Numbered from the stretch's first letter, positions 43,399 through 62,778 are shown. The stretch is 64,000 nucleotides of DNA from a virus (IMGVR_UViG_3300036846_000743:1-64000); one strand, 5' to 3'. Numbers and translations are program-made. The notes: generated by a model from the letters alone, not told the origin.

Positions 43399-45108
43399 TC
43401 AGTCTCCGGTGTTGACCTGTCGTGCTCGCTTCAAGGCCGCAACTGCGGGGGCCTTTTGGATGTAGACCGGCCGGGCCGACGTCTTGCAGTATTCGCGGAC
43501 CTGCTCGATGTCGTTGCGGTGTGTCTTGAACACGATATTCTGCGCCCGGTTGACGATCGTCTCGTCGATCTCCTCGAAGATCGGGATCGTCGTGCTGCGG
43601 CGGTAGGCTGCCAGCGCCCGGGACTGGGTAACCACGTCCTCCAGCTCGGAGCCTATGAAGTTATCGGTTCCGAGGATCAGGGTGTCCCAGTCTGCCGGTG
43701 TGAGCTTCACGCCGTTCTTGCCGGTGAGCTTGTCGATGTCAACGCCGCGCCGCTTGAAGTGACTGGCGATGATCTCCTTGCGGACATCGGAAGTCGGCAG
43801 GTCGGTCGCGAAGACGGCGTCGAACCGGCGAAAGAACTCCGGCTGGATGCCCTGGATCGTATTCAGGGTGCCGATGATGTAGCCCTTGTCGAGCGGGTTC
43901 TGGACCCGCTCCGACAGCCATGCCAGGATCTGGCCGACGGCCCGGAGCGATACCCCGGAGTCACCGTTGTAGCCGCCCGTCGCGAGCATCTTCTCCAGCT
44001 CGTCGATCACGAGCAGGTAGTGCCCCTGGGCCGACAGGGTCTCGGTGACCCAGCGCACATTGCTCTCGGTCTGGCCCACGATGCCGCCGAACAGGGCGGG
44101 CACGTTCAGGAGATAGACCGGGAACCGCTTGCCAGTCTGGTTGTAGAAGATCCGGGCTGCCAGCTTGCCCATCATGCTCTTGCCGGTGCCGGCCACGCCC
44201 ATCAGGAGCATGCCCTTGGGCCTATCAAGGCCCTTATCTTCTTGCTTGTAGCACTGGGCTTGCATGCCCAGGAACTCATGCACCTCGTCGAACCCGCGGA
44301 TATCGCCGTCCTGGGGCAGCCTGTTGAAGGGGATGTAGGTGAGGAAGCCCTGCTGCGAGATCAGCTCGGCCTTCTTCTGCTCGACCGTGTCAAGCACCTC
44401 CAGATCGAAGCCCTTGTGCGCATTGGCGGCCTCAGCCACGGCGTTCTCGAACTGGATCCAGGTCAGGCCGACGCCGATGGCGGCGAGGGCCTGGCGGATC
44501 TCATCGGTGCACTTCTTGCCGTCGGTGCCGGTCTCGACGCTGATCACGGTATCGACGTGCTCCTGCTCGGTAGGACGGGGATACTCGAGCGGCACGACGT
44601 ACTCATGCAGCTCGCGGTGGATCGGCTGCGGAGACACGAAGATGATCTGCCGCCGGTGCCCGGGGACCCCGTTCTTCTTGTCCTCGGCCTTGCAGAGGAC
44701 CAGGTCGTTGATCATCGTCTTGACGATCCGCCGGCAGGCCGGGCCGTCGGTCGGGTCCTCGAAGACGTCGTGGGGATCCAGGAAGACGAACACGCCCCGC
44801 TTCAGCCGTAGCGACTCCAGGGTGGAGATCATCTCCATGGCCGCGAGCATGTTGGTATAGTCGCTCCCCTTCTTGCTGGGAAAAGGGAACTCCTTGGAAA
44901 GGCCGGTCCGGTCGTCGATGCGGTTCCAGGTAAAACCGCGGACACGATCCCAGACGATGAATGCGCAATCGGGGTCAATCTCGTGCATGATCGCTTCGAT
45001 GTCCCGGAGGAACCGGCCATCCTCAGCAGTCCGCACGGATACGGTACCCTGGCTCGAACCCCAGAGGTTCTGAACCTTTCGCTTGACGTTCGGGTTGGTC
45101 ATCGGCAT
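43399..45108 (-). CDS. Ycf46-type AAA+ ATPase
   Basis: 569 residues from ATG 45108 (GAGGA upstream). Residues 1-200: an N-terminal domain with IVWDRVRGFTWN and QIIFVSPQPIHRELHEYVVP as in Ycf46. AAA domain: Walker A GVAGTGKS at 304-311, GGIVGQTESN, Walker B LLVIDE at 365-370, Arg residues 427-428. The GIVGxSE and LF segments are typical of Ycf46 rather than of FtsH or Cdc48. An energy-dependent remodelling enzyme of unknown substrate. Adjacent to the DUF2997-like gene. Confidence 0.75.
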   Translation of the reverse strand: MPMTNPNVKRKVQNLWGSSQGTVSVRTAEDGRFLRDIEAIMHEIDPDCAFIVWDRVRGFTWNRIDDRTGLSKEFPFPSKKGSDYTNMLAAMEMISTLESLRLKRGVFVFLDPHDVFEDPTDGPACRRIVKTMINDLVLCKAEDKKNGVPGHRRQIIFVSPQPIHRELHEYVVPLEYPRPTEQEHVDTVISVETGTDGKKCTDEIRQALAAIGVGLTWIQFENAVAEAANAHKGFDLEVLDTVEQKKAELISQQGFLTYIPFNRLPQDGDIRGFDEVHEFLGMQAQCYKQEDKGLDRPKGMLLMGVAGTGKSMMGKLAARIFYNQTGKRFPVYLLNVPALFGGIVGQTESNVRWVTETLSAQGHYLLVIDELEKMLATGGYNGDSGVSLRAVGQILAWLSERVQNPLDKGYIIGTLNTIQGIQPEFFRRFDAVFATDLPTSDVRKEIIASHFKRRGVDIDKLTGKNGVKLTPADWDTLILGTDNFIGSELEDVVTQSRALAAYRRSTTIPIFEEIDETIVNRAQNIVFKTHRNDIEQVREYCKTSARPVYIQKAPAVAALKRARQVNTGD

Positions 45109-45568: not shown

Positions 45569-46297
45569 TCACTCCTTGCCCAGAGCCTGGGCGAGTCTGC
45601 TTGCCAGCGCCCTGACGTCACCGTGCGCCAGGTGGAGCGCTTCAAGCTGTCCGATCAGCATTCGCAGGTTCGATCTGACGTGGTCATTGATCTCCTTGAC
45701 CTTGGCGGCCTCCGTCTGGGTGATGGCCGCGTGGGTCGCAGGATCGTCGAACTGCGAGTGGACCCGGGCAGCCTGGTTATGCCCACCGTTCCGGATCGCG
45801 ATCCGGAGCACGTCGGGCGGGTCGAGTATACCTTCCTGGTCCAGTGCCGCGCCGATATAGGCACGGACCTCCCTGGAAAACGGCTCCTCATCATCGTCGT
45901 CGGGGGGCGCCAGGAGCATCGCCTCGGTGATCCCCCAGGCGCATTCCGCTGCGTCGGCCGGGTCCCAGGTGGCCGGATCATAGAGCCCACCAGACAGGAC
46001 GTTGCAGATCTCGATGAAGCTGGGCGTGCTCTTGAAGAAGGCGTCCGAGGTGATGACGTGGATGCCAGCCATGAGCCGGTCGAAGTTGGCCCGAGGCAGC
46101 TCGACGCCGAAGTCATCCTGGATCTCGAGCAGGATCGTGCCCGGATGCCAGGCGTAACAGTTTTCGCCAGCCGCGTCCTTGGCGTCGTAGTATTCGTCAT
46201 GGAACAAGGTCACCAGCGTTGTCGCGAAAGACTTGGGATCCGTCCAGGTCACTGCTTGTTGCTGATGTCTCGCCGTGTGGGGCTTGAGCAGCGGCAT
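45569..46297 (-). CDS. Hypothetical protein
   Basis: 242 residues from ATG 46297. Helical; PSFIEICNVLSGGLYDPATW and ECAWGITEAMLLAPPDDDDEE are distinctive, the latter acidic. C-terminal helix VRSNLRMLIGQLEALHLAHG. Not recognised; might be virion-associated. Start overlaps the upstream gene by 101 bases. Confidence 0.5.
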   Translation of the reverse strand: MPLLKPHTARHQQQAVTWTDPKSFATTLVTLFHDEYYDAKDAAGENCYAWHPGTILLEIQDDFGVELPRANFDRLMAGIHVITSDAFFKSTPSFIEICNVLSGGLYDPATWDPADAAECAWGITEAMLLAPPDDDDEEPFSREVRAYIGAALDQEGILDPPDVLRIAIRNGGHNQAARVHSQFDDPATHAAITQTEAAKVKEINDHVRSNLRMLIGQLEALHLAHGDVRALASRLAQALGKE

Positions 46298-47268: not shown

Positions 47269-48315
47269 CTATGGTCGCGGATCAAGCTGCGACAGTAGTA
47301 AAGCCAACTCGGGATCATCGTTGACACGAAAACGGTTGGTCAAGAATGCCCCGGGAGCATGGGGCGTTGGAACCGAATGCAATGACTCGGGTTCCTTGGC
47401 GCCCCTGCGGACGGGCTCGCACGTGGTGCCGCAGCCACCGCCGAATGCCGTCCAGTTGCCTAGCTGGGCCTCGGCGAGTGGCATATTCACCCGTTGTTCG
47501 TAGGGGATCTCCAGGTGAATGTCGACGGTGCGATCCGGCCCCTGCTCAGACCACATGTTGAGACCGCTATCGATCTTGGGAAGTCTGAGACGAAGTACGG
47601 TGAGAGCCCTGCTCATTCGCGTGAGGTTCCCGCCGCCAACCCGGTAGACGATCTCGTAGGTCCGGTTGTCACGCCAGTAATTTGGCTCTTCGTTGTCCGC
47701 TTGCAGCTGGGGAACCGGATCGGGTATCCGCGCGACCGGCCTCTCGACTTCCTGAGCTGCCGGTATCGGCGGCTCAAGCGTTTCGAGACTGGGCATGCGG
47801 GTGATCACGTTGGCCACTGCGGGCGGACTGGTTACCGGAGGTGCCTCGCGGCTGACCGTGCTGGTCGCGGGCGGGCTGGCTATCACAGGTGTCTCGCTGC
47901 GGGCTGTGTCGACCGCAGCAGGTGGGCTGGTTGCCGCAGGCGCCACGCTGCCAGCCGGGCTGGCCGCAGCAGGCGCACTGGCGATACTCCTCGGGTACAT
48001 CCAGTTCGTGGCGAGCACCACAACAGCGGCACCTGTCAGGATGCCAACGCCATAGGTCCGCAAGACACTGGCGAATGTCGCCCGACGTGGTGCCGGCTGG
48101 ATCACGATCGCAGGGGCAGGATCCAGGATGACCGGATCCGGAACTCCAACAGCCCTGGTATCTTGACCGGATGCAGCTGGCACGTGCTTCTGAAGTCTGC
48201 GCGGCCTTGCCGGCTGCGCAGCTTGCTGTTCGACTGACGCGGCGATCTCTTCGACCGCCCGTGTGAACGAGTCTGAGTCCGGTCCTCCGACCGGTCCTGT
48301 GTTCGAGGCTTTCAT
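47269..48315 (-). CDS. Bitopic membrane protein with Pro/Ala/Thr-rich region
   Basis: 348 residues from ATG 48315. Cytoplasmic N-terminal 85 residues, a membrane helix (YGVGILTGAAVVVLATNWMY), then a long Ala/Pro/Ser/Thr-rich stretch with repeated SPPA, and a C-terminal domain with IVYRVGGGNLTRMSRALTVL. The topology suggests a periplasm-spanning protein (as in TonB- or spanin-like proteins), but no family is recognised. First of the envelope-protein block, with two CCCCAAC motifs in its leader. Confidence 0.55.
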   Translation of the reverse strand: MKASNTGPVGGPDSDSFTRAVEEIAASVEQQAAQPARPRRLQKHVPAASGQDTRAVGVPDPVILDPAPAIVIQPAPRRATFASVLRTYGVGILTGAAVVVLATNWMYPRSIASAPAAASPAGSVAPAATSPPAAVDTARSETPVIASPPATSTVSREAPPVTSPPAVANVITRMPSLETLEPPIPAAQEVERPVARIPDPVPQLQADNEEPNYWRDNRTYEIVYRVGGGNLTRMSRALTVLRLRLPKIDSGLNMWSEQGPDRTVDIHLEIPYEQRVNMPLAEAQLGNWTAFGGGCGTTCEPVRRGAKEPESLHSVPTPHAPGAFLTNRFRVNDDPELALLLSQLDPRP

Positions 48316-48451
48316 GCTTATCTTTCTGTTGGGGTGGGAGACTTGGGTATTGGCAATCTCGTTGTTGGGGATTGGCTTGGTGGCGAACTCAGCGCCGGGT
48401 ATTTCTGCTAAGCGAGTTCTGCGACGTGGAACTTCCAGTAAACAACCGTAT

Positions 48452-48667
48452 TTACTGGTCAACCTTTTCCAGCAGAACCGCGAGCCAACCAGCGGTGACT
48501 TCAATCGACCTCGAATGGGAGTTAGTAGAATGAGCAACACCAGTGGATCCAACGGATGTCATGGACCTAACGATCCAACCTTGTTTGAGTAACTCGGTGA
48601 GATGTTCCTTAACATCTAGCTCGTTGGGTTTCTGCGTAGTAAGCCCGATCGTGATCAGTTTCTGCAC
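48452..48667 (-). CDS. Small hypothetical protein (DUF4177-like)
   Basis: 71 residues from ATG 48667. Pattern KEHLTELLKQGWIVRSMTSV and a C-terminal GWLAVLLEK resembles the fold of small DUF4177-type proteins. No signal peptide. Function unknown. Confidence 0.5.
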   Translation of the reverse strand: MQKLITIGLTTQKPNELDVKEHLTELLKQGWIVRSMTSVGSTGVAHSTNSHSRSIEVTAGWLAVLLEKVDQ

Positions 48668-48699
48668 TTCAACATTTCTCCAATGGCCGAACGATAAAG

Positions 48700-48730
48700 C
48701 TCACTTGTTCGGCCGGCACAAGTGAGCTGT
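48700..48730 (-). terminator. Hairpin terminator
   Basis: AGCTCACTTGT (48700-48710) pairs with ACAAGTGAGCT (48720-48730), perfect; the minus-strand flank is TTATCGTT. Confidence 0.55.
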
Positions 48731-48768
48731 CTAGGACATAGGGTGAGATATAAGAAAAAGGGTAAAGA

Positions 48769-48797
48769 CGGCGGCCGTAGTACGCGGCCGCCGTCGT
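48769..48797 (-). terminator. Strong Rho-independent terminator
   Basis: GACGGCGGCCG (48769-48779) pairs with CGGCCGCCGTC (48787-48797); TTTACCCTTTTTC follows on the minus strand. It ends the lipoprotein gene at 48812. Confidence 0.75.
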
Positions 48798-48811
48798 GCA
48801 AACAAGTTAGA

Positions 48812-49141
48812 TCACTTCTTAACGGGTGGTGCCGGAGCAGTCTTGGTTGTCGCTTCAGCCGGAGCCGGAGTGGCAGCCGGAGCAGCGGGCGGAGCAGGAG
48901 CAGCCGGAGCGGCAGTCAACGCAGGAGCGGCCACCTCGTCCACGATGGCGCGGACGATCACAGGCTTGTCATTGGTCGTGATCCTCACGACCTTCCTGCT
49001 GGTATTGGCCGGCACCTTGACCTCCGTCACTGTCGTATTTGTGCCTTCCGGAAAAAGATCCGGATCTCCGGTGCAGCCAACGGCGCCGAGGGTGGCAAAG
49101 ATCAGGGAAACGCACGCAAACCGACTCATGAACTTACGCAT
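48812..49141 (-). CDS. Small lipoprotein with Pro/Ala-rich tail
   Basis: 109 residues from ATG 49141 (GGAGTTTCG upstream). Signal peptide with lipobox FATLGAVGC near residue 23: lipid anchor on the Cys. Mature part: NTTVTEVKVPANTSRKVVRI then a tail of repeated Ala/Pro. Possible outer-membrane spanin-like or host-surface protein; strong terminator follows. Confidence 0.65.
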   Translation of the reverse strand: MRKFMSRFACVSLIFATLGAVGCTGDPDLFPEGTNTTVTEVKVPANTSRKVVRITTNDKPVIVRAIVDEVAAPALTAAPAAPAPPAAPAATPAPAEATTKTAPAPPVKK

Positions 49142-49257
49142 CGAAACTCCTAACGTAGTTGTGGTGGTGAAGCTGCTAACAAGCAGAAGAACCGAAGTTG
49201 GGGAAGTAGGAACGGCGGCTGCAACATGCAGTCGCCAACACTGAGATACACGACGGG

Positions 49258-49587
49258 TCAGCCTCCGGAGTCCGGCGCTGCTTTGTACGCGAGTGCAACT
49301 ATCACCAGGATGATCAACCAACCGAGCCCGTACAGGGCACCGATGAGGATCAGCCCGGAAACCATCAACAGGATGGTGTTTATCAACTTGCTGCGGAGTA
49401 CCCACCGGACCAGTACCATGACTGTCCTGCGCCAGAGCCATGTGGCGCACAGCCAGCGGAAAAAGATCCAGATACTCGCGATGGACGGTGAGAGGGTTAC
49501 GCTTTTACCCCCGACGACGACCACAGGATTGGCTAGAACAGCTGAGACATGAGCGTTGAAGCTGTTTACCTTCCTGTCTTCTTCCAT
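49258..49587 (-). CDS. Membrane protein
   Basis: 109 residues from ATG 49587. Hydrophobic segments IASIWIFFRWLCATWLW and INTILLMVSGLILIGALYGL / WLIILVIVALAY. No motif. Sits between the two lipoprotein genes. Confidence 0.55.
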   Translation of the reverse strand: MEEDRKVNSFNAHVSAVLANPVVVVGGKSVTLSPSIASIWIFFRWLCATWLWRRTVMVLVRWVLRSKLINTILLMVSGLILIGALYGLGWLIILVIVALAYKAAPDSGG

Positions 49588-49617
49588 GGCTTCTTTCGTA
49601 TCGCTGGAAATGAAAGA

Positions 49618-49642
49618 CGGCGACCACAACGAGCGATCGCCG
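49618..49642 (-). terminator. Hairpin, repeated at 50232
   Basis: CGGCGA (49618-49623) pairs with TCGCCG (49637-49642); minus-strand TCTTTCATTTCC follows. Nearly the same sequence recurs at 50232-50260. Confidence 0.5.
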
Positions 49643-49675
49643 ACATGATGGTTAGCTGAAGTCCGCACGGTCGGA

Positions 49676-50194
49676 TCAACTCGACCGTGATACGGTAACT
49701 CCATTGATCGTCGCCTCACTGGCAGTCAGCTTCGTGATCGGCGCATTATCGAACACGGTCACGGAATGGGACTTCCAGCAGACAATTGCCCAGACACGCG
49801 TTACATGGGCTGTCAGCTTACCGTCACGGACGCTCCACACGCCCTTGGCGTTACGCGTCGTGAACGTGCCGTCGCGTTTGAGGTCGACGTCGACCATCTT
49901 CCCGTTGACGCACAAGGCGTAGTGACCGGCGCAGTTTTCACTCGTGACCGGCAGCGGGCTGCTCGGAACAACCGTGACTGACAGCTGGCCGCCCGGAACA
50001 ACTTGCATGTTCGCGGAGGAATACGTGCCGCCGATGCGCACGTTGCCGCCTCCAGACGGGAGAGGCCAAGGTTGTTTGATCTCTCCCCCGGCACCGCTAT
50101 CAATCGTGAATTTGCAGCCTGTGGTGGTAGTGAGACCGGCAATCACGCAAGCCAACAAGACGAAGCGCATGAACCGGCCAGTGATCTTTCTCAT
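49676..50194 (-). CDS. Lipoprotein
   Basis: 172 residues from ATG 50194. Signal peptide MRKITGRFMRFVLLACVIAG then TTTTGC lipobox, lipid anchor on Cys 27. The mature domain is strand-rich with a GGGNVRIGGTYSS segment and two possible disulfide Cys (NCAGHYALC). No known family. Second lipoprotein of the envelope block. Confidence 0.65.
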   Translation of the reverse strand: MRKITGRFMRFVLLACVIAGLTTTTGCKFTIDSGAGGEIKQPWPLPSGGGNVRIGGTYSSANMQVVPGGQLSVTVVPSSPLPVTSENCAGHYALCVNGKMVDVDLKRDGTFTTRNAKGVWSVRDGKLTAHVTRVWAIVCWKSHSVTVFDNAPITKLTASEATINGVTVSRSS

Positions 50195-50231
50195 CGAAAC
50201 TTTTTCCTTCTACTACGTGTACGAGCTGAAA

Positions 50232-50260
50232 GACGGCGACCGCAACGAGCGATCACCGTC
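50232..50260 (-). terminator. Hairpin, repeat of 49618
   Basis: GACGGCGA (50232-50239) pairs with TCACCGTC (50253-50260) with one mismatch; T-rich flank. Shares long identity with the hairpin at 49618. Confidence 0.5.
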
Positions 50261-50275
50261 ACTGGAACTTAGTGA

Positions 50276-51190
50276 TCACCAGCTGCGCAGTCCGGGCATG
50301 GCATAGGTCCAGACCAGCCCGCACATGCAGAAGGTGAGGACGGTCAGCCCGAGCAGCCAGCCGACAGATGCCAGCTGCCGCTTCCATGTGACCGTCCTGA
50401 AGTGGCAGGCATTGGTGATGACGTCCATGATGCTGGCGACCAGCAGGGTGACGACCACCAAGGCGACGGCACACACGACCAGGCTCAAAGCATGGGTATA
50501 TACCCACCAGAAAGCAGCTATGACCGCTCGCCAGTAGAGCATGCCGGCACAAACGACGACGGCAGCCGCCACAAAGGCGGCAGCACCGAGCATGAATTGC
50601 TTAAACCATGAAGGGACCTTGCCCAACCCCAACCATACCTTGAAACCATCGATCTTGGTCCAGAACTTGCCGGCCAAGTTCGGCAGATACAATGGCGGTG
50701 GTGGACCCGGTGGACCCGGTGGAGCCGGTGGAGTCGGTGGAGCCGGTGGGATTGGCGGACCCGGCGACGGACTCGGCGATAGGCCCGGGAAAGCCGCCAC
50801 GGCTGCCGCCATGGCTGCCGCCATAGGATCGACAGCTGGCGGACCCGGAGGGGCTGGAGACGGAGCTGAAGCCGGAGCTGGCGGAGCCGCAGCAGCCGCC
50901 AACGCTAACATAGCCGTCTGGACAATCGCCTTGAGATCGCTGACTTCCTTGGCGAGTGCCTCGATGTCCTCGATCTTGACGGTCCTTTGGTTTGAAGCCG
51001 TCGGCGTTGAGTTCGCTGTCTTAGCTCCTCCTGCCTTCGCCGACGGCTTTGCTCCCGACCCTGCCACAGGTACCTGAACTGGTGCCTGCGCTGGTGCCTG
51101 AGCTGGTATCGGAGCCGGTATTGGAGCAGAATTAGCAGGTTGCCCATTAACGGGCACTGGGGGTGAAGCGGTCTGGGCCGCTGTACTCAT
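50276..51190 (-). CDS. Polytopic membrane protein with Pro/Ala-rich N-terminus
   Basis: 304 residues from ATG 51190. The first 180 residues are Pro/Ala-rich, with a helical segment IEDIEALAKEVSDLKAIVQT and a PPGPPGPPPP run; the C-terminal 110 residues hold about four membrane helices (MLGAAAFVAAAVVVCAGMLY, VVCAVALVVVTLLVASIMDV, WLLGLTVLTFCMCGLVWTY). Its leader has three CCCCAACA motifs at 11-base spacing. Function unknown. Confidence 0.55.
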   Translation of the reverse strand: MSTAAQTASPPVPVNGQPANSAPIPAPIPAQAPAQAPVQVPVAGSGAKPSAKAGGAKTANSTPTASNQRTVKIEDIEALAKEVSDLKAIVQTAMLALAAAAAPPAPASAPSPAPPGPPAVDPMAAAMAAAVAAFPGLSPSPSPGPPIPPAPPTPPAPPGPPGPPPPLYLPNLAGKFWTKIDGFKVWLGLGKVPSWFKQFMLGAAAFVAAAVVVCAGMLYWRAVIAAFWWVYTHALSLVVCAVALVVVTLLVASIMDVITNACHFRTVTWKRQLASVGWLLGLTVLTFCMCGLVWTYAMPGLRSW

Positions 51191-51261
51191 GGAAAGAACC
51201 TCCTGATATTTGTTGGGGATCTGTTGGGGTTTTGTTGGGGATCAAACAAGGCAATGCACAA

Positions 51262-51336
51262 GGCCGCCGCCTACTTCAACTCATTCCTCCGCTCCCCCCA
51301 ACAACAAGAGTAGAGAAGGAGGAGCCGGCGGCGGCC
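51262..51336 (-). terminator. Large nested hairpin
   Basis: GGCCGCCGCC (51262-51271) pairs with GGCGGCGGCC (51327-51336); inner TCCTCC/GGAGGA. Lies downstream of the 51389 gene. Terminator or structured leader of the next gene. Confidence 0.45.
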
Positions 51337-51388
51337 CCTGTACGGGGCGTATGTGGGTGGTGATCGGGTTGACTCGAACCGGAGCAGG

Positions 51389-51754
51389 TTACTTCGCTAT
51401 GCCGCCGCCAGGACCTTTCGGTTCCTGCGTATTGACATGAGCGAGCCTGTCCCGCATGTCCTCGAACAGACCTGCGAGCTTATCCACCTGGGAGGTGACA
51501 GCTTCCTTCGAGGTGTGGATGATCTCCGCAGACTTGCGAGCGTCTCCAGCGTTGTCAGCAGCCCGGCTCGCTTCATCCTGGGCTTCCTGAACCAACTTCA
51601 CGATCTTCTCCATGGCCTTCTCGGCCGCATGAGCCTGGCTCTGGGCCGCCCTCGCGGCATCCCAGGCTTCCTGGTTGTAATGCCACTGAACACAGCTGAT
51701 GACCACCATGAGAACGATCATGGCGGCGACGGAATGCTTCTTGACGAAATTCAT
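51389..51754 (-). CDS. N-anchored coiled-coil protein, spanin-like
   Basis: 121 residues from ATG 51754 (GGAGTATGCGCAG upstream). One N-terminal membrane anchor, VAAMIVLMVVISCVQWHY, then a long helical part with Ala/Glu/Lys heptads (EKAMEKIVKLVQEAQDEASR). This is the topology of an inner-membrane spanin subunit; the nearby lipoproteins could be partners. Assignment by topology only. Confidence 0.5.
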   Translation of the reverse strand: MNFVKKHSVAAMIVLMVVISCVQWHYNQEAWDAARAAQSQAHAAEKAMEKIVKLVQEAQDEASRAADNAGDARKSAEIIHTSKEAVTSQVDKLAGLFEDMRDRLAHVNTQEPKGPGGGIAK

Positions 51755-51904
51755 CTGCGCATACTCCTAGCTTGGTAGTTGGGGAACGAACACTGACTGG
51801 GGACGTGGACCGACCGAGCGATTGACATTCCCTCCGTCATGCGACGGAAGAAAGGGAACCGGCCGGCCCACGCTTACGGTTGGGGAACTAACAATCGAAC
51901 CTGG

Positions 51905-52207
51905 TCAGGAGCGATACTCTACCAGCCGATGAGCAGGAAGCTGCTCGAGAATATCGGACGGTAGGTATTCGCATTCGGGCAACAGCCCATCCCCGACATC
52001 CGGCGTAGCATCGAGGTCTTGTCCAGTGACCTCGCCGGCACACAGAGAGCAGAGCCACACGGTGAACTCCTCACCCGCGACTACCAGCAACACGACATGA
52101 GTCGCGTCGAGGTCTCCGCACTGCGTACAGGAACAACAGGAACACTCTGGCACACAGTCAACGATCCAGGCGTCGCTGTCGACATCTGGTTGAAGACGTC
52201 CTTTCAT
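51905..52207 (-). CDS. Cys-rich hypothetical protein
   Basis: 100 residues from ATG 52207. A cluster CVPECSCCSCTQCG near residues 18-30 and a later CSLCAG make eight Cys, pointing to metal binding. No signal peptide. Preceded by a CTAAA-N15-TGTCATATA promoter. Confidence 0.5.
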   Translation of the reverse strand: MKGRLQPDVDSDAWIVDCVPECSCCSCTQCGDLDATHVVLLVVAGEEFTVWLCSLCAGEVTGQDLDATPDVGDGLLPECEYLPSDILEQLPAHRLVEYRS

Positions 52208-52282
52208 TTGCTGGACTCCCTGCTACGATCACCATGCTTCCGGGCACGATGCCAGCGATCCACAACCTATGTAGATCAACGC

Positions 52283-52311
52283 TATATGACAGGAATCTGG
52301 GCGAAATTTAG
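52283..52311 (-). promoter_or_regulatory. Phage promoter candidate, copy 1
   Basis: Minus strand CTAAA (52307-52311), 15 bases, TGTCATATA (52283-52291), 76 bases before the ATG of the 51905 gene. Identical to copy 2 in both boxes and at five positions between them. Confidence 0.55.
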
Positions 52312-52327
52312 CGCCCAGAAACGAAAC

Positions 52328-52361
52328 GGCCCGGCTTGGAGGCAAACCTCCGGGCCGGGCC
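52328..52361 (-). terminator. GC-rich terminator
   Basis: GGCCCGG (52328-52334), GGAGG, CAAA loop, CCTCC, CCGGGCC (52355-52361); T-rich GTTTCGTTTC on the minus-strand flank. Ends the PEP-CTERM gene. Confidence 0.65.
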
Positions 52362-52393
52362 ATTTTCAGCAGGATAACGTGGTAGCGCGTTGC

Positions 52394-53092
52394 TTACGCC
52401 TTGCGGACGGACCTGCGGAAGTACCGTCTGTAGGCGAGCACACCAGTGAGCCCGATGCCCATCAGGGACATCGAGGCAGGCTCAGGCACGGCCTGCTGCG
52501 AGAAACTACCGTTAGCGACGATCGTCGAACCTGGCGTCGCGAACAACCCGGCAAAGCTATTGATCCCCCCACCGAAGGTAGTTCCGGTAAAGGTGAAGTT
52601 GATATCGCCGCCCTTGGCAAACAGCGAGTAGTCAAACCGTGGGTTGTCGTTCTCGATCAGACTGACGATCTTGCCGCTCATATTGAAAAAGTTGGGCAAA
52701 ACGGTCGGGGCAACACCAGTCGTGGCGGTGAACGTCAGCATCGCTTCAGCGCCCGGCACGTCGCCAACGGTCTTGGTATAGGTTGATGGCGACAGCGCCA
52801 ACGAGTAGGTCTCCGAGCCAGTAGGCGTCACCAACAAGGTGATCGGCCCGTTGACCGAGATCGGCTCAGGTGTCAGCAGTGACACGCCGTTGACCGTGTT
52901 CACCTGACTGAACAGATTGGGTATCCGCGCGATCTCGATCGTCGCGGTACCTCCCGAGATCCCCATGTTCGTCAGCTCGACACCGCCGATCGAACCGGAG
53001 TCGCTGAACACCACGGTACCGGCTTGCGCCGATCCCAGGCCGGCGATCGCAGCGACCAAAGCCATGGCAAAACAGAGAGAACGCATCTTCAT
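52394..53092 (-). CDS. PEP-CTERM domain surface protein
   Basis: 232 residues from ATG 53092 (GGAAGT and GGAG upstream). N-terminal signal peptide (RSLCFAMALVAAIAGLG, AQA cleavage). A Thr/Gly/Ser-rich middle with beta repeats. C-terminal VPEPASMSLMGIGLTGVLAY followed by RRYFRR is a classical PEP-CTERM sorting tag (PEP motif, membrane helix, basic end), cut by an exosortase. The protein would be exported and anchored or processed at the cell surface. Unusual on a phage-like replicon. Confidence 0.85.
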   Translation of the reverse strand: MKMRSLCFAMALVAAIAGLGSAQAGTVVFSDSGSIGGVELTNMGISGGTATIEIARIPNLFSQVNTVNGVSLLTPEPISVNGPITLLVTPTGSETYSLALSPSTYTKTVGDVPGAEAMLTFTATTGVAPTVLPNFFNMSGKIVSLIENDNPRFDYSLFAKGGDINFTFTGTTFGGGINSFAGLFATPGSTIVANGSFSQQAVPEPASMSLMGIGLTGVLAYRRYFRRSVRKA

Positions 53093-53133: not shown

Positions 53134-53180
53134 CGTACTCCACGCACGGAACCTGAAGCCCGGGCTATAGGGCTCCATAG

Positions 53181-53209
53181 TATATGACAGGCAGACGGCC
53201 GAAGTTTAG
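53181..53209 (-). promoter_or_regulatory. Phage promoter candidate, copy 2
   Basis: Minus strand CTAAA (53205-53209), 15 bases, TGTCATATA (53181-53189), about 90 bases before the PEP-CTERM start. Confidence 0.55.
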
Positions 53210-53275: not shown

Positions 53276-53590
53276 CTAGAAAGTCCGGTCAGTAACTTTG
53301 TTGGCTGCGTTGACGTGCACAACGCGGACCTGCCTGGCCCGCAGGAATTGCTTGAAGCGGATCTTGTCCTGGGGCTGAAGCGCCGCCAGCTCGTTCTTGA
53401 ACGTCCGATATTCGGCCAGAACAGTCCGTTGTTTCTTGGGGCAGCGACCGCAGCCCCGGCCCTGCTTGACCTGAACCAGCCGGGCCAGATGGGGAAACTC
53501 ACTGCGAAAGTCTTCCCGCGCCACCAGCGAGTCGATCAGGCTGTTCTCGATCACGACAACGCCGCGCATGGTCTCTGTACCGGTCGACAT
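53276..53590 (-). CDS. Hypothetical protein
   Basis: 104 residues from ATG 53590. A CxxC in GRGCGRCPKKQRT plus basic helices (LAEYRTFKNELAALQPQDKI). First gene of the probable virion block. Not recognised. Confidence 0.5.
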   Translation of the reverse strand: MSTGTETMRGVVVIENSLIDSLVAREDFRSEFPHLARLVQVKQGRGCGRCPKKQRTVLAEYRTFKNELAALQPQDKIRFKQFLRARQVRVVHVNAANKVTDRTF

Positions 53591-53592
53591 GT

Positions 53593-54081
53593 TCAGCTCT
53601 CCGAGCCAATGGTGATCGGGGGTGCCGTGTTCTGCTGATCCATCACGTTGAGGGTCTCGACCAGCTGATTCACCTCGTACAGGATCGCATTGTACGCATC
53701 GTTGGCGATTGACCGGCTGCGCACGATCAGGTCGACGTAGTCGAGCCGGTACCAGGGCGGGCGCGCGTTCTGGACCGGCCAGTCCTCGGGAAAGTCCTCG
53801 AGATCGGCCGGACTGCAAACACCATCGAACGCCCCCATGTACTCGATGGCTACCGGCGGCTGATCAACGGTACCGGCCTGTACCCTGGTGGGCACAAGCC
53901 GGTAGCGAAAGATCTTGGTCGGCATCTGGACCGCCCCCGTGACGACAAGGGTGAACCGAAAGCCGTCGATCACGTTGGGCACGTACCCTTGCTGGAACGT
54001 GGGAACCAGCGTGATCTGCCGGATCCCGGTGCCGACAATCAGGGTATCCGCGGACTGATCGAGCGACTGCGTGGTGGCCAT
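53593..54081 (-). CDS. Hypothetical protein, possible virion component
   Basis: 162 residues from ATG 54081. Strand-rich (ADTLIVGTGIRQITLVPTFQ, FRFTLVVTGAVQM) with a long helical end (SIANDAYNAILYEVNQLVET). Neighbours are fibre-like proteins. No family recognised. Confidence 0.5.
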   Translation of the reverse strand: MATTQSLDQSADTLIVGTGIRQITLVPTFQQGYVPNVIDGFRFTLVVTGAVQMPTKIFRYRLVPTRVQAGTVDQPPVAIEYMGAFDGVCSPADLEDFPEDWPVQNARPPWYRLDYVDLIVRSRSIANDAYNAILYEVNQLVETLNVMDQQNTAPPITIGSES

Positions 54082-54126
54082 TTCACATCCTCCCTGCGTG
54101 ACACGTCGGCTGTCAGTCCGGCGAAC

Positions 54127-54582
54127 CTATCTCGGGGTGCGGTTGAAGTCCATGCTATCCGTTGCCCCGCACTCAGGACAGGTATTGTCCGGAAAGCCAA
54201 CCCTGGCCCTGTACGAGCAGTTGCGGCAGCGGATACGAAATTCCCGCGCGTCACCCTCCTCCTTCTGAAACGGCTCGATGTAAGTGACGCCCTGGCGGAC
54301 GAGCTTGTTCAGATAAACCAGCTCATCCAGGCAAACCTCGATGCGATCCATGAGGTCAGGCCCCGCGTGCTTAGGATCGTCCTTGAGCACAGCGTGGATG
54401 TCAACGGCAGACGCCGCGTACAGCTTGTGTACCTGGCGGCGCACGGCAGAACGAAAACTTATATACTCCTGTGTATGCTTTGCATTCTGGGTTGGCATCT
54501 GTACGGCCCTCGTAGTATGGCGATGCCGGGCGCAAAGAGAACGTATGTACTCCTGCATGCCCTCTGTGATCTTCTTTGGCAT
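54127..54582 (-). CDS. Hypothetical protein with C-terminal zinc ribbon
   Basis: 151 residues from ATG 54582. Basic helical first 110 residues, then CRNCSYRARVGFPDNTCPEC, a zinc ribbon. Might bind nucleic acid. Not recognised. Confidence 0.55.
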   Translation of the reverse strand: MPKKITEGMQEYIRSLCARHRHTTRAVQMPTQNAKHTQEYISFRSAVRRQVHKLYAASAVDIHAVLKDDPKHAGPDLMDRIEVCLDELVYLNKLVRQGVTYIEPFQKEEGDAREFRIRCRNCSYRARVGFPDNTCPECGATDSMDFNRTPR

Positions 54583-54616
54583 TCGTACCCCCTTCGTAGA
54601 AACGAACGAGCCTGGT

Positions 54617-55006
54617 TCAGTGTTTCAGCTCGAAAGACTCTTCTTCCTCGACGGTCACCGCACGCTTGGTGATCACCTCGTCGTTGCGAATGATGTAGAT
54701 GACAAACTCGTCGCCCTTCTTGCCGGCGATAAAAGCGTCGGGCACCAGGAAGCCCTTCGCCCAGACCAACTTCTTGGTGGCGGATTCCGTCGGAATGTCT
54801 GTGAGCGGTCGGAACGCACCCATCGCGAAGTCAAAGAACATGACGGGCCTGCATCCCTCGTCGGCATCATCCGCCTGGTCGTTCCTCTTTTTCTTCTTCT
54901 TGGGTTTCAGTTCGACTGCGTAAGCATAGATAGCTTTCCTGTCGCTCTTCGGCGCCAGGTAGCTGATCGTGAGCGGTTTGATCACAGCACTCTTCACCCA
55001 TCGCAT
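54617..55006 (-). CDS. Hypothetical protein
   Basis: 129 residues from ATG 55006. A basic run KPKKKKKRND and then strands (EFVIYIIRNDEVITKRAVTV). Not recognised. Confidence 0.45.
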   Translation of the reverse strand: MRWVKSAVIKPLTISYLAPKSDRKAIYAYAVELKPKKKKKRNDQADDADEGCRPVMFFDFAMGAFRPLTDIPTESATKKLVWAKGFLVPDAFIAGKKGDEFVIYIIRNDEVITKRAVTVEEEESFELKH

Positions 55007-55272
55007 GCCGACTGCCTCCCGGCTGACCACGCCATGAAGTAACGGTTGCCACCGTGACCGCCACGGCGATCTGCCAGCTTTTCCTGCTCGAACCGATCCA
55101 GCATCAGCTGGACCTGTTCGAGAACTTGCCTGTGAGGATATGCACGGTATGTCGGACGATCGTGCAGCAAACCGGTAGCTTCTTCAGCGCTCAGCCCGCC
55201 GGCTATGGTCTCGACCAGCAACTCTAACAGGTCAACCTTGAGCAGCTTGAGATCGATCGAAGATGGTTCCAT
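54994..55272 (-). CDS. Small hypothetical protein
   Basis: 92 residues from ATG 55272 (GGAGGTACGA upstream). Helical start (IDLKLLKVDLLELLVETIAG), basic Gly-rich end (RRGGHGGNRYF). Overlaps the next start by 13 bases. Confidence 0.5.
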   Translation of the reverse strand: MEPSSIDLKLLKVDLLELLVETIAGGLSAEEATGLLHDRPTYRAYPHRQVLEQVQLMLDRFEQEKLADRRGGHGGNRYFMAWSAGRQSACDG

Positions 55273-55289
55273 TCGTACCTCCGATAGTG

Positions 55290-55318
55290 AAAAAAATAGG
55301 CCGCCCCGAGGGGCGGCC
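55290..55318 (-). terminator. Strong Rho-independent terminator
   Basis: GGCCGCCCC (55299-55307) pairs with GGGGCGGCC (55310-55318); TATTTTTTTC follows on the minus strand. It ends the 55353 gene. Confidence 0.8.
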
Positions 55319-55352
55319 GGTTGCCGGTGCTGGTGGTGGTGAGTCGGTCCGG

Positions 55353-55895
55353 TCACTTCAGCGGCAGCTTCGAGCCCCTGAGCATCTCCGACACGAAGCG
55401 CAGCGAGTTCTGCCGGAACTTCTCCTGGGCTTCCTCGCCGCGAATGTCGGCGCGATCCATCAACGCCACGAGGCGACGCTGGGAATCCCGCTTGACCTCG
55501 ACGCTGGGCCAGCGATCGAGCGTGTCCGCGCTGTAGATTGCCGTGAGCACGGTCATCAGCTGCAACTTGTCGACGTCCGGCTTGGCTTCCAGCGCGGCAA
55601 GCTGCCGCAAGGCCACGTCGACCACGCTCGGCTTGGGCTTGGGCGTCGACCGGTACTGCGTGCGATCCATCAGCACCCCGAGCCGCTCCATGCAGGTCAT
55701 GCCAACATCCTTGTCGGGCCAATGGTTGCCGTGGTGCACGGTGAGGCCCAGCCCGGCAACCACGTCCAGGTCGAGCATGAACGTGGCGTCGAGGGGCCGC
55801 TGCTGTGCCCGTCGCTCCAGGTCTTCAAGGCCATCCATCAGCAGCTTGAACAGATCCGGTTCAGGACCGGCTGTCGCCAGCGAATCCGGTGACAT
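55353..55895 (-). CDS. Hypothetical helical protein
   Basis: 180 residues from ATG 55895. Helices (LFKLLMDGLEDLERRAQQRP), a HHGNHWPD loop, basic C-terminal helices (DSQRRLVALMDRADI). Not recognised. Preceded by promoter copy 3. Confidence 0.5.
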   Translation of the reverse strand: MSPDSLATAGPEPDLFKLLMDGLEDLERRAQQRPLDATFMLDLDVVAGLGLTVHHGNHWPDKDVGMTCMERLGVLMDRTQYRSTPKPKPSVVDVALRQLAALEAKPDVDKLQLMTVLTAIYSADTLDRWPSVEVKRDSQRRLVALMDRADIRGEEAQEKFRQNSLRFVSEMLRGSKLPLK

Positions 55896-55961
55896 TGGTG
55901 ATCTACCTTTCGTAGAAAAAGTTGGGTAGGACCACTCCACAACTAGGAAGTGGCCTTACTG

Positions 55962-55990
55962 TTTATGACATTTTTCCGGCTGATCTTTAG
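55962..55990 (-). promoter_or_regulatory. Phage promoter candidate, copy 3
   Basis: Minus strand CTAAA (55986-55990), 15 bases, TGTCATAAA (55962-55970), 67 bases before the start of the 55353 gene. The CTAAA box lies in a small hairpin CTGATC...GATCAG (overlapping region 55979-55995). Confidence 0.5.
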
Positions 55991-56003
55991 ATCAGTCAGC
56001 GCA

Positions 56004-56924
56004 TCAGGCTTCGTAAGCCTTCGACCAGAATTCCCGGTTCTTCCTGGCGACGTCGGCGGTGAACATCGGGAACCGGGTATCCTGTTTGCCCTCGCGGATG
56101 CCCGAGATGGTCACGACAAAGCGCGTGGGAATGCCGTGCGAAGTGTCGCCAACGTCCAGGAAGATTCGGCCGTTGTCGATCATGACGCCGACGGCACAGG
56201 GCAGATTGGGCGCCACGGCGATTGGCAGAAGTGAGCCCGACACGCAGACATCGAGGAACCGCTGGTCCAGCTGGACCATTACACGTTTCAGCTTCTTGCT
56301 GTTGGGAATATCATAGACATCGAAGAACCTGGCCTCGGGCATCTCGGCACAGAACAGGCCAACGTAGTCATCGTCGGCGTTATTGAGCGGCATGATGGCA
56401 TACTTGTCACCCTGTGCGCCGGTTTTCCCTTGGGTTCCCTGCGGGCCTTGCGCGCCATCAGAACCGTCCTTGCCGTCTGTACCGGCTTTTCCGGGGTATC
56501 CCTGCGGGCCAGGGTAGCCAATCCCGTCGTCGCCTGGAGGGCCTTGAGTGCCTGTGCCAGCGGGACCAGGATCGCCTTTGGGCCCCGCCGGGCCCGGCAC
56601 CGTACTGGCCGGGCCAATCGGGCCAGTCGGGCCGGGGGGACCATGCGGACCGATCGGACCTGGAACACCGACACCACCGATACCTTGGAGACCTTGGGGA
56701 CCCTGGGGACCTTGGGGACCCTGGGGGCCTTGGATACCCTGGATGCCCTGAATTCCGGACGGACCAGTGACCGGGATCGAAAGCCAGGCGTCGCAGTTCA
56801 TGATCGCCTGGGGCGCGTCGGGCACCGTGCAGTCGTTGATGAACGGCTCAATACCGATCGGGTGCAGATCCGGAGGGACCGGGCACTTCGTTGCATCGAA
56901 AATGGGGTCTGGAAAGTTAGGCAT
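56004..56924 (-). CDS. Collagen-like fibre protein
   Basis: About 306 residues from ATG 56924 (GAGGA eight bases upstream; stop of the previous gene overlaps as ATGCCTAA). Central region of about 35-40 Gly-x-y triplets, starting [15 protein letters not shown], then mixed triplets with Pro, Lys and Asp. A C-terminal globular part of about 130 residues ([20 protein letters not shown]) probably mediates trimerisation or binding. Collagen-like stalks are well known in phage tail fibres and bacterial surface proteins. Overlaps the previous fibre-type gene. Confidence 0.8.
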
Positions 56925-57927
56925 CGCCCAGGTCCTCGACAATCACTTCGACTGCATCGCCCAGGTCCTCGATGATCGTGCTGGCAGCTGCACAGACGGT
57001 CATGTCGTGCCGATCGAAGTCAACGATCAGGCTCGTGTTGTCGTCGGACGATGTGATCGTGGTGCCCACATCGGCAACCAGCAGAATGACGCTGGCCGTC
57101 AGCCCGTTAATGCCGTAGATGACCTCATCGCAGGCCGGCCCGCCGCTGAGCAGGCTGCTCCCGGGCGGAGGTTGCTCATCGGGCGTGAGTGGCAGCTCGC
57201 CGAGGGGCGCGTCCTCACCGCAAACCACGCCGGCGCCGCCGGCCAGCACCGCCATGAAGGTGATGGAATTGGTTCTGGTATTCTGGCGGATCGAAACGTT
57301 GAAGCCCTCCTTGAACCGCAGATCCCCCACCAGATTGCGTGCATTGATGATGTATTCGAGCGGCGAAGCAGGCAAGCTGCCGCCAGGACAATCATCCGGT
57401 GGTGTTACATGGGTGCGATCTTGATTGGCCAGATTGATCGTCCGGACATAGCTCCGGCTCAGGTTCTGGATCCGTGCCGGCTCGATCTGTGGGCCTGTGG
57501 TGGCCGCCAGCGTACCGTCTGCGGGCATCAAGGCGGCAAGGTTGTCCATTGGGCCGGTGACCAGGAAGCCCTCCCAGAGCGGCGGCTGGGGCGGCGGAGA
57601 GCTTCCCAGAGCCACAGCCGCAACGTAGTTGGTCGCGAACTCAGCATCAGTCAGATCACGACTGAACTTCAGTGCATATCCAACCAGGCCAGGTGCGCTC
57701 GAACGAAAGTCAAACGTGAACGTATTGCCTGCACGCGTGACCTGATGCAGGTATATAACGTCCTTGGTGTCGTCGAATTCGGAGTCGAGCCCCACCAGGC
57801 AGCCGAAGTCGAGCAGCGTATCCAGGGGCAGGCGGAATTCGGCTGGCTTGTCCGATAGCGCGTTCGAGAACGGGATCAGCGGATAGGCCCGTCCTTCGTT
57901 GTCGTTGCAGAATCCCGGCCGCGCCAT
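56917..57927 (-). CDS. Fibre/appendage-like protein (R-x-YPL family)
   Basis: 336 residues from ATG 57927. Starts with [16 protein letters not shown]; rest strand-rich with Gly/Asp ([14 protein letters not shown]), ends VEDLGDA. Related by the N-terminal motif to the genes at 57931, 58704 and 61813. Probable virion or host-contact protein. Confidence 0.6.
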
Positions 57928-57930
57928 GCG

Positions 57931-58701
57931 TCACCTCAGCTGTACCCCGTGAACTGTGCTGCCCACCAGACCGATGATCAGTGTATCCGGCGGCTTGGGA
58001 ACGATACGCAGGACCGTGTCGGGAGCGGAAGCATTCGCCACGGCGATCTGGAAGTTGCCCTCGGAGTCGGGTGCGATGCCATTGATCGTCTTGACGAACC
58101 GCGGGGGCGAGTATGACTGTGCCGGATAACAGAGCCGGCGCGCAAAGAGCGGGTCACCCACCACGTCGACCCGGATTGAGCCGTCGTCGTCCAGGCTGAC
58201 CTGAATGCCGTTCTCGCCAATGATCCAGGTATCGCCGGTGAGCAGGATGCCCTGCGACGCGAGCAGGCCGCGCACGCCTTCCTCGGGCGTGGAGATCGTG
58301 CAGCTGGCGGCGAACTCGGTGGCCCCGATGTCGAAGACATGCGCGCCCGTCGGCCATGACTGGGCCGACGCCAGTAAGATGGGATCGGCCACGAACAGCC
58401 CGGCAGGCCGGCCGTAGCCATCGGCCAGAGCAATCAAGTTCGGCGGCGCCAGCGGATCGAACGAGCCTGACGCGAGCTGGGGCCTGGTGGCGTCACCGAT
58501 CCAGATCGTGACGACGCGGTTCGAGACTTCGAGTGATGAGATGTAGACCCGCGGGCCGGCGCCGATCGGATAGACGACCGCATCGATGAGCATATCGGGG
58601 GTCAGACTGATCTTGTCCCGCGACAGGAGCGTAGCCGTGTCGGCGAACGGATAGAGCGAGTCCAGGTTCTCGTTGCGAAATTCCGGGTGAACAATTCTCA
58701 C
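57931..58701 (-). CDS. Fibre/appendage-like protein (YPF/ING family)
   Basis: 256 residues from GTG 58701, two bases after the TAG of the previous gene. N-terminus VRIVHPEFRNENLDSLYPFA matches the shared N-x-R...YP(L/F) motif. Near the end KTINGIAPDSEGNFQIAV carries the ING-x-P-x3-GNF motif common in tail-fibre proteins. ATG 58884 would extend it over the previous gene and is less likely. Confidence 0.6.
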   Translation of the reverse strand: MRIVHPEFRNENLDSLYPFADTATLLSRDKISLTPDMLIDAVVYPIGAGPRVYISSLEVSNRVVTIWIGDATRPQLASGSFDPLAPPNLIALADGYGRPAGLFVADPILLASAQSWPTGAHVFDIGATEFAASCTISTPEEGVRGLLASQGILLTGDTWIIGENGIQVSLDDDGSIRVDVVGDPLFARRLCYPAQSYSPPRFVKTINGIAPDSEGNFQIAVANASAPDTVLRIVPKPPDTLIIGLVGSTVHGVQLR

Positions 58702-58703
58702 GG

Positions 58704-60434
58704 CTAGCCCCCGAACGGATTGTCTGAATCCCAGAACGAGATGAAGCTGAACCGGCAGTGCGCGTTGTTGGCCCCGAACCCGATCTTGCCGCCGTGGATC
58801 AGGTTGATCCCCCAGGGCTGCATCACCTCGATCAATGTGAAGCTCGGGTCCTCGAGCGGCTTGAGCACGATGGTGAAGTTCCACAGGTCCTTGTTAGGGC
58901 CAGGATTGGGACTGATCGCGCTGTTGACGCTCAGCTCGTACCAGAGCCCGGGCTTGGGCCTGTTGGTGCCGAACGGGAACCCGACAGCCATGGTGAGCCC
59001 GCCGCGAAAGACATTGAACTCCAGGTAATTGGTGACCAGGTTGGGCCCGATGGAGAAAAAGGTCGGCATCCCGCCCATCGTGGGGTCCTGGGCAATGTAA
59101 TTGAGCACGATGGCGCCGTTCATCTGGGGCCCGGGCATGATCTTGATGTCGGTGCCAACGTTCAGATTCATGTTCAGGAAGTCATAGTCGCAGTCCCAGA
59201 TCGACACGCTCATCTTGGATGGGTTGGTGCAGGCGTAGCTCTGATTGATACTGGTGATCGTCGGGGCGGTTGTCCGGGTGGCCCGGTGCAGAGGTGGAAA
59301 GCCCGTGAACCCCAGAGTACGCCCGGGCGCAGGACCGGGCCCCGGGCCAGTTGCACCAGCAGGCTCCTGCGGCGAGTCGTCCGCTTCGATGGCCCAGTCG
59401 CCCTTCATCGGGACCCACGCCGACGATATGCCGAAGTCAAAGCTGTCGTAATAGGGCATCGGAACACAGCCTGCCGGCAATGGTCCCGGCGGTGTCGGCG
59501 TCGGCCCCGGCTCGGGTGTCGGCGGCAGTGGCGGCGGGCACTCATCCGGATACGTGCCGGGTAGGTTCCCTGCGCTGTCGGGCAGCGTATCTTGACCCAG
59601 ACAGACATCGGCCATGCCCAGCGACAGGTCCAGGGCAAAGCCGCCGCCACCCTCGAACGGCAGGTACTTCAGGATGTCGTAAGCCTTGCTGAAGTCGATG
59701 GTCAGATTGCCGTCACAGTCGGGCTGGACGGTGTTGATCATCTCGAGCACCGGCCTGCCACAGGTGTTGCTTTCAGGCCGACCTCCGCAAGGGCCCGTGT
59801 AGTAGCTGTAAACGTTGCGGTTCAGACTATCGATCAGGCCAATCACGATGGCGTCGACGTCGCCGCTATCGATGTTGCGTATCTCCTGCGTCACCGCGAT
59901 GTCGGTGCTGCCCAGAAGCTGGATCACGCCGGTCAGGGCCTGACTCAGGCCGAGCTTGCCCAGGGAACGGACCGGCAGGGGATCGTAGGCCAGGGCCACG
60001 CGGGGCAAGAGTAGCGACTGGCCCGGCGAGCTGAACCGGCCCGAGTAGGGCTCTTCGATGCCGCGGCCGAAGACCAGCCAGCCTCCGACGCCGCCGGCCA
60101 TGGGCTGGATTGGGTAGTGCCGGTTGGGTGTAACCGGCTTGGGCAGCGAGACCGACCCCAGGGGCTGCATGGCCACACCGTTCCGCAGCACACCACCCGG
60201 CGGCAGGACTGCGGTAGGAGTCGCCATGATCACGGCCGTGACGATACTTGGTCCGACAGTCACGCCGCTGAGGTAGGCGAACTGACCGATGGTCGTGGGG
60301 AACCGGATCCGGCAGTCGACCAGGATCTGGGGCGGTAGCTCCCGCCCGCCGTCGTCGCGCGCCGTCGCCGCGTCATCGAGCGGGTAGGCTCGGGTCGCAT
60401 TGGCTGCATACCAGTCCGGGTTCCTGATGCCCAT
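58704..60434 (-). CDS. Large fibre-like protein with lectin-like domain
   Basis: 576 residues from ATG 60434 (AGGAAGAACTG upstream). N-terminus GIRNPDWYAANATRAYPLDD; INTVQPDCDGNLTIDFSK in the middle (the ING-type motif); a Pro/Thr-rich linker (PPLPPTPEPGPTPTPPGP) and a C-terminal part (WYELSV, WNFTIV, IGFGANN) that resembles a concanavalin/LamG-like beta sandwich. Probable receptor-binding protein. Lectin call is inference. Confidence 0.6.
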   Translation of the reverse strand: MGIRNPDWYAANATRAYPLDDAATARDDGGRELPPQILVDCRIRFPTTIGQFAYLSGVTVGPSIVTAVIMATPTAVLPPGGVLRNGVAMQPLGSVSLPKPVTPNRHYPIQPMAGGVGGWLVFGRGIEEPYSGRFSSPGQSLLLPRVALAYDPLPVRSLGKLGLSQALTGVIQLLGSTDIAVTQEIRNIDSGDVDAIVIGLIDSLNRNVYSYYTGPCGGRPESNTCGRPVLEMINTVQPDCDGNLTIDFSKAYDILKYLPFEGGGGFALDLSLGMADVCLGQDTLPDSAGNLPGTYPDECPPPLPPTPEPGPTPTPPGPLPAGCVPMPYYDSFDFGISSAWVPMKGDWAIEADDSPQEPAGATGPGPGPAPGRTLGFTGFPPLHRATRTTAPTITSINQSYACTNPSKMSVSIWDCDYDFLNMNLNVGTDIKIMPGPQMNGAIVLNYIAQDPTMGGMPTFFSIGPNLVTNYLEFNVFRGGLTMAVGFPFGTNRPKPGLWYELSVNSAISPNPGPNKDLWNFTIVLKPLEDPSFTLIEVMQPWGINLIHGGKIGFGANNAHCRFSFISFWDSDNPFGG

Positions 60435-60463
60435 CAGTTCTTCCTAGCTGAAGGTTGACACGA

Positions 60464-61828: not shown

Positions 61829-62778
61829 CCTTGATCGTTCAAACGTGAACCTAAGATGATCTGGCTGAAGGTATTGAGCTGGAGCGCGAGCTGATCAACG
61901 AAGCTCTGAAGAGTCGCCTCACCCGTACCCAGGATCTGGAGTTCCTGGGTGACGTATTCCAGTTCCGCGCACCCGCAGCACGGCGACGAGCAGCTGTCGT
62001 TGAGTTGAAGACCGTTGCTGAGCGGATTGATCGTCAGGCAGCTATCACCGGTCAGGGAGAAGTCGCCATTGGGCAAGGGCGATACGCCGTTGATCCTGCG
62101 GATCGGTGGACCGATAGTTCCCTCGCAGGCGCATTGCTCAGTCAAGCCAGCACCATCGATGGCATCAAAACGAACCTCGGCCGGGACAGCCGGCGAGGTG
62201 TCAGTGGCCTGGGAGCCCGGGGTCACCGAGATCTGCATGTTGCTCCCTGACGACAGGATCACGTGCCCGGTCAGCCTGTCACTCAGTTCGCCGTTATTCA
62301 GGACCCGGAGCGACTGGATGCCGCGGATCATCGGCCGGATGCAATCACTGTCGAGCCCGCCGCCATTGATGTCGAAGGAGAACTGCCCGGTCGGCTGAAG
62401 ATCGATCGAACCGAGCTGGCCGATGACGAGCTTGCCCACCGAGTCATCGAACGGGTAAACCCCTGGCAGGGAATAGGTCGTGTTCGGTACATGCGTGACC
62501 TTGCTGATGATGGCCGAGGCAACAATGGCCACGCCGTCGCTGCTGTTGTACCCGATCGAGATGTTGTAGCCGGTCGCGAAGATCGAGATCGAGGCGAGAA
62601 AGAATTGATCAACGTCAACGTTGACCCCGGCATGCGCGGGGAAATAAAGCTCCAGGATAAAGTCATCGGGCAGCTTGAACGTGCCGGTGAGATCGGTCTT
62701 GGTGGCATCATCGGACAGCGGATAGGACCGCTGCGAGTTATGATTGAGCCACTCCAGGTTCCAGATACCTACTGGCAT
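61813..62778 (-). CDS. Fibre/appendage-like protein (YPL/ING family)
   Basis: 321 residues from ATG 62778. N-terminus GIWNLEWLNHNSQRSYPLSD; later RRINGVSPLPNGDFSLTGDS and a CCGCAE cluster followed by a helical stretch (LEYVTQELQILGTG). Shares N-terminal, ING-type and Cys-cluster motifs with 58704 and 60464. Probable adsorption protein. Confidence 0.6.
   Translation of the reverse strand: MPVGIWNLEWLNHNSQRSYPLSDDATKTDLTGTFKLPDDFILELYFPAHAGVNVDVDQFFLASISIFATGYNISIGYNSSDGVAIVASAIISKVTHVPNTTYSLPGVYPFDDSVGKLVIGQLGSIDLQPTGQFSFDINGGGLDSDCIRPMIRGIQSLRVLNNGELSDRLTGHVILSSGSNMQISVTPGSQATDTSPAVPAEVRFDAIDGAGLTEQCACEGTIGPPIRRINGVSPLPNGDFSLTGDSCLTINPLSNGLQLNDSCSSPCCGCAELEYVTQELQILGTGEATLQSFVDQLALQLNTFSQIILGSRLNDQGCIQC

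Follow-up and report, generated by a model that had tools for sequence, protein, structure and literature searches.

We found that a block of eight genes (47269-53092) in a viral sequence of 64,000 nucleotides (hereafter the window, the whole stretch analysed) is, by comparison with two related phages, a variable accessory ('moron'-like) locus and not a conserved cassette. With moderate confidence, we read it as a moron-like locus of a jumbo phage, made of short, separately spaced and mostly envelope-targeted units that would alter the surface of the infected cell. The best remaining reading of the block would be host-surface remodelling, one of the two roles, together with lysis, that the original prediction had offered.

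The window represents bases 1-64000 of a 226,073-base IMG/VR virus record (G000), which by its gene content is that of a jumbo myovirus, a jumbo contractile-tailed phage. PHROGs matches in the record include a tail sheath, a major head protein, a family A DNA polymerase and a UvsX-like recombinase, and the window codes for a sigma-70-like factor (20150-21019) and a class II ribonucleotide reductase. In one ORF of the record (209681-213331), a uracil-DNA glycosylase superfamily domain lies N-terminal to DNA polymerase A. The block sits between an AAA-ATPase module and collagen-repeat and other probable tail genes; the adjoining probable tail module (53276-63954) includes the collagen-repeat protein (56004-56924), which itself belongs to a conserved gene string. 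The G+C content is 0.57-0.61 in the block and about 0.61 around it, with no deviation from the genome. When genome_contigs were scanned for a host, the sole match was to a Bacteroidetes MAG, through a distantly related AAA protein, and the PADLOC, PDB sequence and Rfam searches returned nothing of weight.

Transmembrane (TM) segments, signal peptides and lipoproteins were called from hydropathy and lipobox patterns, and by these the products of seven of the eight intact minus-strand ORFs look envelope-targeted. From the low-coordinate end, the block encodes a bitopic, Pro/Ala-rich protein of 348 aa with a C-terminal domain and one TM segment at 84-102 (47269-48315), a lipoprotein of 109 aa with an AVGC lipobox and a Pro/Ala-rich C-terminus (48812-49141), a small membrane protein of 109 aa with two to three TM segments (49258-49587) and a second lipoprotein of 172 aa with a TTGC lipobox, for which profile searches gave no family match (49676-50194). 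These assignments agree with the original prediction, which had listed a bitopic protein, another membrane protein and two lipoproteins. Its polytopic protein with a Pro/Ala tail (50276-51190) does carry three TM helices, but these are C-terminal and the Pro/Ala-rich part is the N-terminus. The anchored coiled-coil protein (51389-51754) was modelled as a single helix (2-109, pLDDT 82.5) with a TM segment at 1-19, although a possible lipobox (VISC) offers an alternative to this TM anchor. The next product, of 100 aa (51905-52207), is indeed Cys-rich, with nine Cys in CxxC-type groups, but it lacks a signal peptide and is probably a cytoplasmic zinc ribbon; it was not counted as an envelope protein, and the description of the whole block as envelope proteins is narrowed accordingly. 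The last gene (52394-53092) encodes a protein of 232 aa with an N-terminal signal peptide (MKMRSLCFAMALVAAIAGLGSAQA, a hydrophobic stretch called by hydropathy only), a beta-rich part, and a VPEP motif, TM segment and basic tail. It had been named a PEP-CTERM protein and exceeds the cut-offs of both Pfam (PF07589, 26.8 bits; cut-off 20.7) and NCBIfam (TIGR02595, 18.9; cut-off 16), while its structure model was uninformative (mean pLDDT 29.8). PEP-CTERM is a sorting tag that is normally processed by a bacterial exosortase.

The gaps among the eight genes measure 81-496 nt. Within the largest lies a likely ninth gene (48452-48667, minus strand, GTG start), encoding a soluble 71-aa product with no TM segment and no family match found, and the true gaps would then be about 81-233 nt. 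Nowhere else in the record do eight gaps of 70 nt or more follow one another, and same-strand gaps outside the block have a median of 30 nt, a comparison that is approximate because genes outside the block were called with a home-made caller. The change of gene style and the separate spacing of the block genes, both part of the earlier claim, are therefore supported.

Hairpins or terminators had also been proposed for most gaps. RNAfold gave stems in all block gaps, and a simple hairpin score was significant against shuffles in five of nine of them versus 29% of 76 other gaps; this excess is modest, and a consensus terminator scan was near chance (9 found versus 6.8 +/- 2.2 expected). All on the minus strand, terminator-like hairpins follow the PEP-CTERM gene (52326-52365; RNAfold, GGCCCGGC...GCCGGGCC then TTTCGTTT), the three-TM gene (50232-50260; 0/40 in the shuffle test), the second lipoprotein gene (49618-49642; terminator scan, repeat and shuffle test) and the first lipoprotein gene (48767-48795; GACGGCGGCCGCG...CCGCCGTC then T-rich, fold and shuffle test). 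On the same strand, a long hairpin separates the coiled-coil and Cys-rich genes (51800-51873; fold and shuffle test), another follows the small membrane protein gene (49213-49237; 0/40 shuffles), and the gap between the first lipoprotein gene and 48452 holds a second one (48698-48728; RNAfold). With their surroundings, the hairpins at 50232-50260 and 49618-49642 form a 91% direct repeat, suggesting unit-wise duplication or shuffling.

A repeat within the block pointed to a promoter-like motif, CTAAAcTTCg..GTCATATA. We trained a matrix on seven sites and scanned it over the record and its two relatives with reversed sequence as the control, which yielded 16 sites above 15 bits, against a maximum of 14.1 bits in the control. 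The training sites account for seven of the 16, and three of the remaining nine are at this locus; 14 of all 16 are followed, after about 70-260 nt, by a start codon that has a Shine-Dalgarno-like sequence. The sites in our record are at 9422, 52276, 53174, 55955, 119557, 178549, 197501 and 209513, with further ones in both relatives. Within the block, the motif precedes only the PEP-CTERM gene (53174-53209, minus strand, 42.2 bits) and the Cys-rich gene (52276-52311, minus strand, 44.9 bits), both training sites, and it recurs at the orthologous place in two of the two phages having the former gene and in all three phages for the latter. Only three such sites of the window belong to this locus, leaving most block genes without one; a stock sigma-70 promoter scan stayed at chance level. 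Hairpins in most gaps and the motif before these two genes support separate control of some block genes, as read from the sequence, and the shared motif offers a testable regulatory element for this uncultured jumbo-phage group. The record also contains 24 copies of CCCCAAC, 10 of them intergenic on the minus strand, and eight of these 10 (48328, 48364, 49197, 51212, 51223, 51234, 51778 and 51879, minus strand) are concentrated upstream of four block genes, in their leaders; the three-TM gene alone has three of them (51212-51240, minus strand). The corresponding leaders of both relatives were found to lack CCCCAAC.

The two relatives, of 141 kb (G001) and 161 kb (G002), were retrieved with the AAA-ATPase (43399-45108) and with 45569-46297 as queries, respectively, and both are collinear with our record over long stretches. 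They are incomplete records, yet the locus is fully covered in both. Querying viral_contigs directly with the PEP-CTERM and coiled-coil proteins yielded no relative, and alignments of the PEP-CTERM pair and of 41824 added none beyond these two. Orthologs flanking the block share 38-82% identity. Of the block proteins themselves, the Cys-rich one alone is clearly present, in place, in both relatives (30% identity in G001 and 38% in G002); the PEP-CTERM protein has an ortholog in G001 only (locus L011, 60% identity) and the bitopic protein is weakly matched at its C-terminus (29%, E 5e-6, G002, L012 7064-8542; E 0.07, G001, L011 5376-6641). The pair of PEP-CTERM genes diverges with dN 0.39 and dS 1.42, and the gene is, by a dN/dS of about 0.27, under purifying selection. 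In contrast, neither the lipoproteins (48812 and 49676) nor the coiled-coil, 109-aa membrane and three-TM proteins were matched at E 0.01 in any part of the two incomplete relatives, whose locus is occupied by other small membrane proteins. Because the flanks are kept and most of the set is absent, we regard the block as a variable accessory locus. The cassette as a fixed set does not survive this comparison, as absence of the set from relatives is the outcome that the original prediction had named as speaking against it; what stands is a locus common to all three phages. The variable region spans about 47-56 kb and has the conserved genes 53276 and 53593 inside it, which separate the block from a second variable stretch (54127-55895) of soluble proteins that match the relatives barely or not at all. 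Not every gene of the locus is an envelope gene, as 51905, 48452 and, further along the variable region, 54127-55895 show, which counts against the envelope reading.

The conserved, purifying-selected PEP-CTERM gene, the long gaps, the hairpins, the promoter-like and CCCCAAC motifs, and the replaced interior between conserved flanks were all counted in favour of a moron-like envelope locus. Under this reading, the N-anchored helix would, like the lipoproteins and membrane proteins, go to the host envelope during infection, and the PEP-CTERM protein would be exported, with the exosortase of the host then sorting it to the cell surface. Jointly, the block proteins may give the infected cell an altered surface, most plausibly so as to exclude competing phages, and turnover of the genes would mirror conflicts with the host envelope and between phages; surface remodelling and superinfection exclusion are in this sense the function that we infer. 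Known phage morons, such as lambda lom and rexAB and the Ltp-type superinfection-exclusion lipoproteins of Streptococcus thermophilus phages (PMC3952083), likewise comprise variable envelope or surface genes whose position between conserved phage modules is fixed. Such genes have control elements of their own, to which the promoter-like motif before two block genes and the hairpins in most gaps may correspond. However, most known cases are expressed from prophages of temperate phages, whereas this is a jumbo phage for which lysogeny is not demonstrated, and here several units stand in a row. The deviating G+C content typical of morons was also not found in the block. Both relatives carry other genes between the conserved flanks and no empty site was seen, so the insertion of units remains a proposal.

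An alternative is that the block holds recently captured host envelope genes, passengers of little use to the phage. Bacterial PEP-CTERM genes have the same style, most of them standing alone as single-gene units behind a long intergenic region (PMC1569441), and five of the eight block genes have no counterpart in the relatives. We nevertheless consider mere passengers unlikely: the PEP-CTERM gene is shared at 60% identity with a relative and bears the mark of purifying selection, a phage promoter-like motif precedes it in both phages having the gene, and the G+C content of the block equals that of the genome.

Lysis, the second role originally suggested, is in our judgement quite improbable. 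In such a module, the coiled-coil protein would be the inner-membrane spanin, the lipoprotein at 48812 its outer-membrane partner and the membrane protein at 49258 the holin. An N-anchored long helix and a Pro-rich lipoprotein do recall the two-component spanins Rz/Rz1 of lambda, and 51389, with its i-spanin-like predicted single helix, N-terminal TM segment and lipoprotein genes nearby, gave weak matches to Rz-like spanins (best E 2e-4). These came among other coiled-coil matches to many unrelated models, and identification of 51389 as a spanin from HMM matches alone was rejected. Unlike Rz and Rz1, the candidate partners are not adjacent but separated by over 2 kb and three other genes, with neither lipoprotein gene (48812 or 49676) next to 51389, and the spanin-like pieces have no homolog in either relative. 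Scans of the neighbouring genes found no lysis family and no endolysin nearby; SLT, phage-lysozyme and Amidase_2 domains were absent from all three records, the only endolysin-type signal in these domain scans being a sub-threshold M15 match in G001, though a divergent endolysin may have escaped them. Finally, that the block encodes exchangeable accessory tail or fibre-associated proteins of the virion is highly improbable, since its signal peptide, lipoboxes and exosortase tag imply export by the host cell whereas tail proteins assemble in the cytoplasm, even though the block adjoins the probable tail module with its collagen-repeat protein.

Returning to the moron-like locus, the most interesting part and the wider and better lead is the phage-encoded exosortase substrates. 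We tentatively propose that phages of exosortase-bearing bacteria commonly encode substrates of the host exosortase and so display phage proteins on infected cells via host sorting; this locus would be one instance, its lipoproteins and membrane proteins reaching the envelope by parallel routes. If phage PEP-CTERM proteins are indeed sorted in this way, they would provide a direct handle on phage surface remodelling of poorly studied environmental bacteria. The protein at 52394 resembles the substrates of the bacterial PEP-CTERM/exosortase (EpsH) system in its signal peptide, VPEP motif, TM segment and basic tail over the cut-offs, and in being encoded by a single gene after a long intergenic region. 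It differs in that the gene is phage-borne and no exosortase was found in any of the three phage records, so that sorting would need the host. Bacterial species with PEP-CTERM proteins possess an outer membrane and exopolysaccharide genes (PMC1569441). Among viruses, TIGR03118 exosortase-interaction proteins have been listed among the proteins of hot-spring viruses derived by horizontal gene transfer (HGT; PMC11003980), and our literature search found no other report of virus-encoded exosortase-interaction proteins. Those proteins are likewise virus-encoded with a putative exosortase-interaction C-terminus, but they belong to another family and were there only listed as HGT-derived.

Further candidates came from the same phages and from IMG/VR. 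Our record has a second PEP-CTERM C-terminus (128695-129159), without an obvious signal peptide, and in G001 such a C-terminus (139498-139575) is joined to a choice-of-anchor E domain. The four PEP-CTERM proteins used as queries matched none of 50,697 annotated phage records. A DNA pattern used to scan IMG/VR for similar C-termini (loci L039-L118) returned at least 80 loci, at least 41 of which had at least 43 correctly laid-out C-termini from several unrelated families; many IMG/VR contigs may carry host DNA, and these loci are to be taken as a lead and not as a count. Spot checks revealed phage genes near some of them, namely a terminase and a helicase-primase (L047), a terminase (L118) and a primase (L055), and the L118 locus also adjoins a transposase. 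Tandem PEP-CTERM-like pairs were present at L055 (8070-9637), L117 (1796-3402) and L083 (1738-3353).
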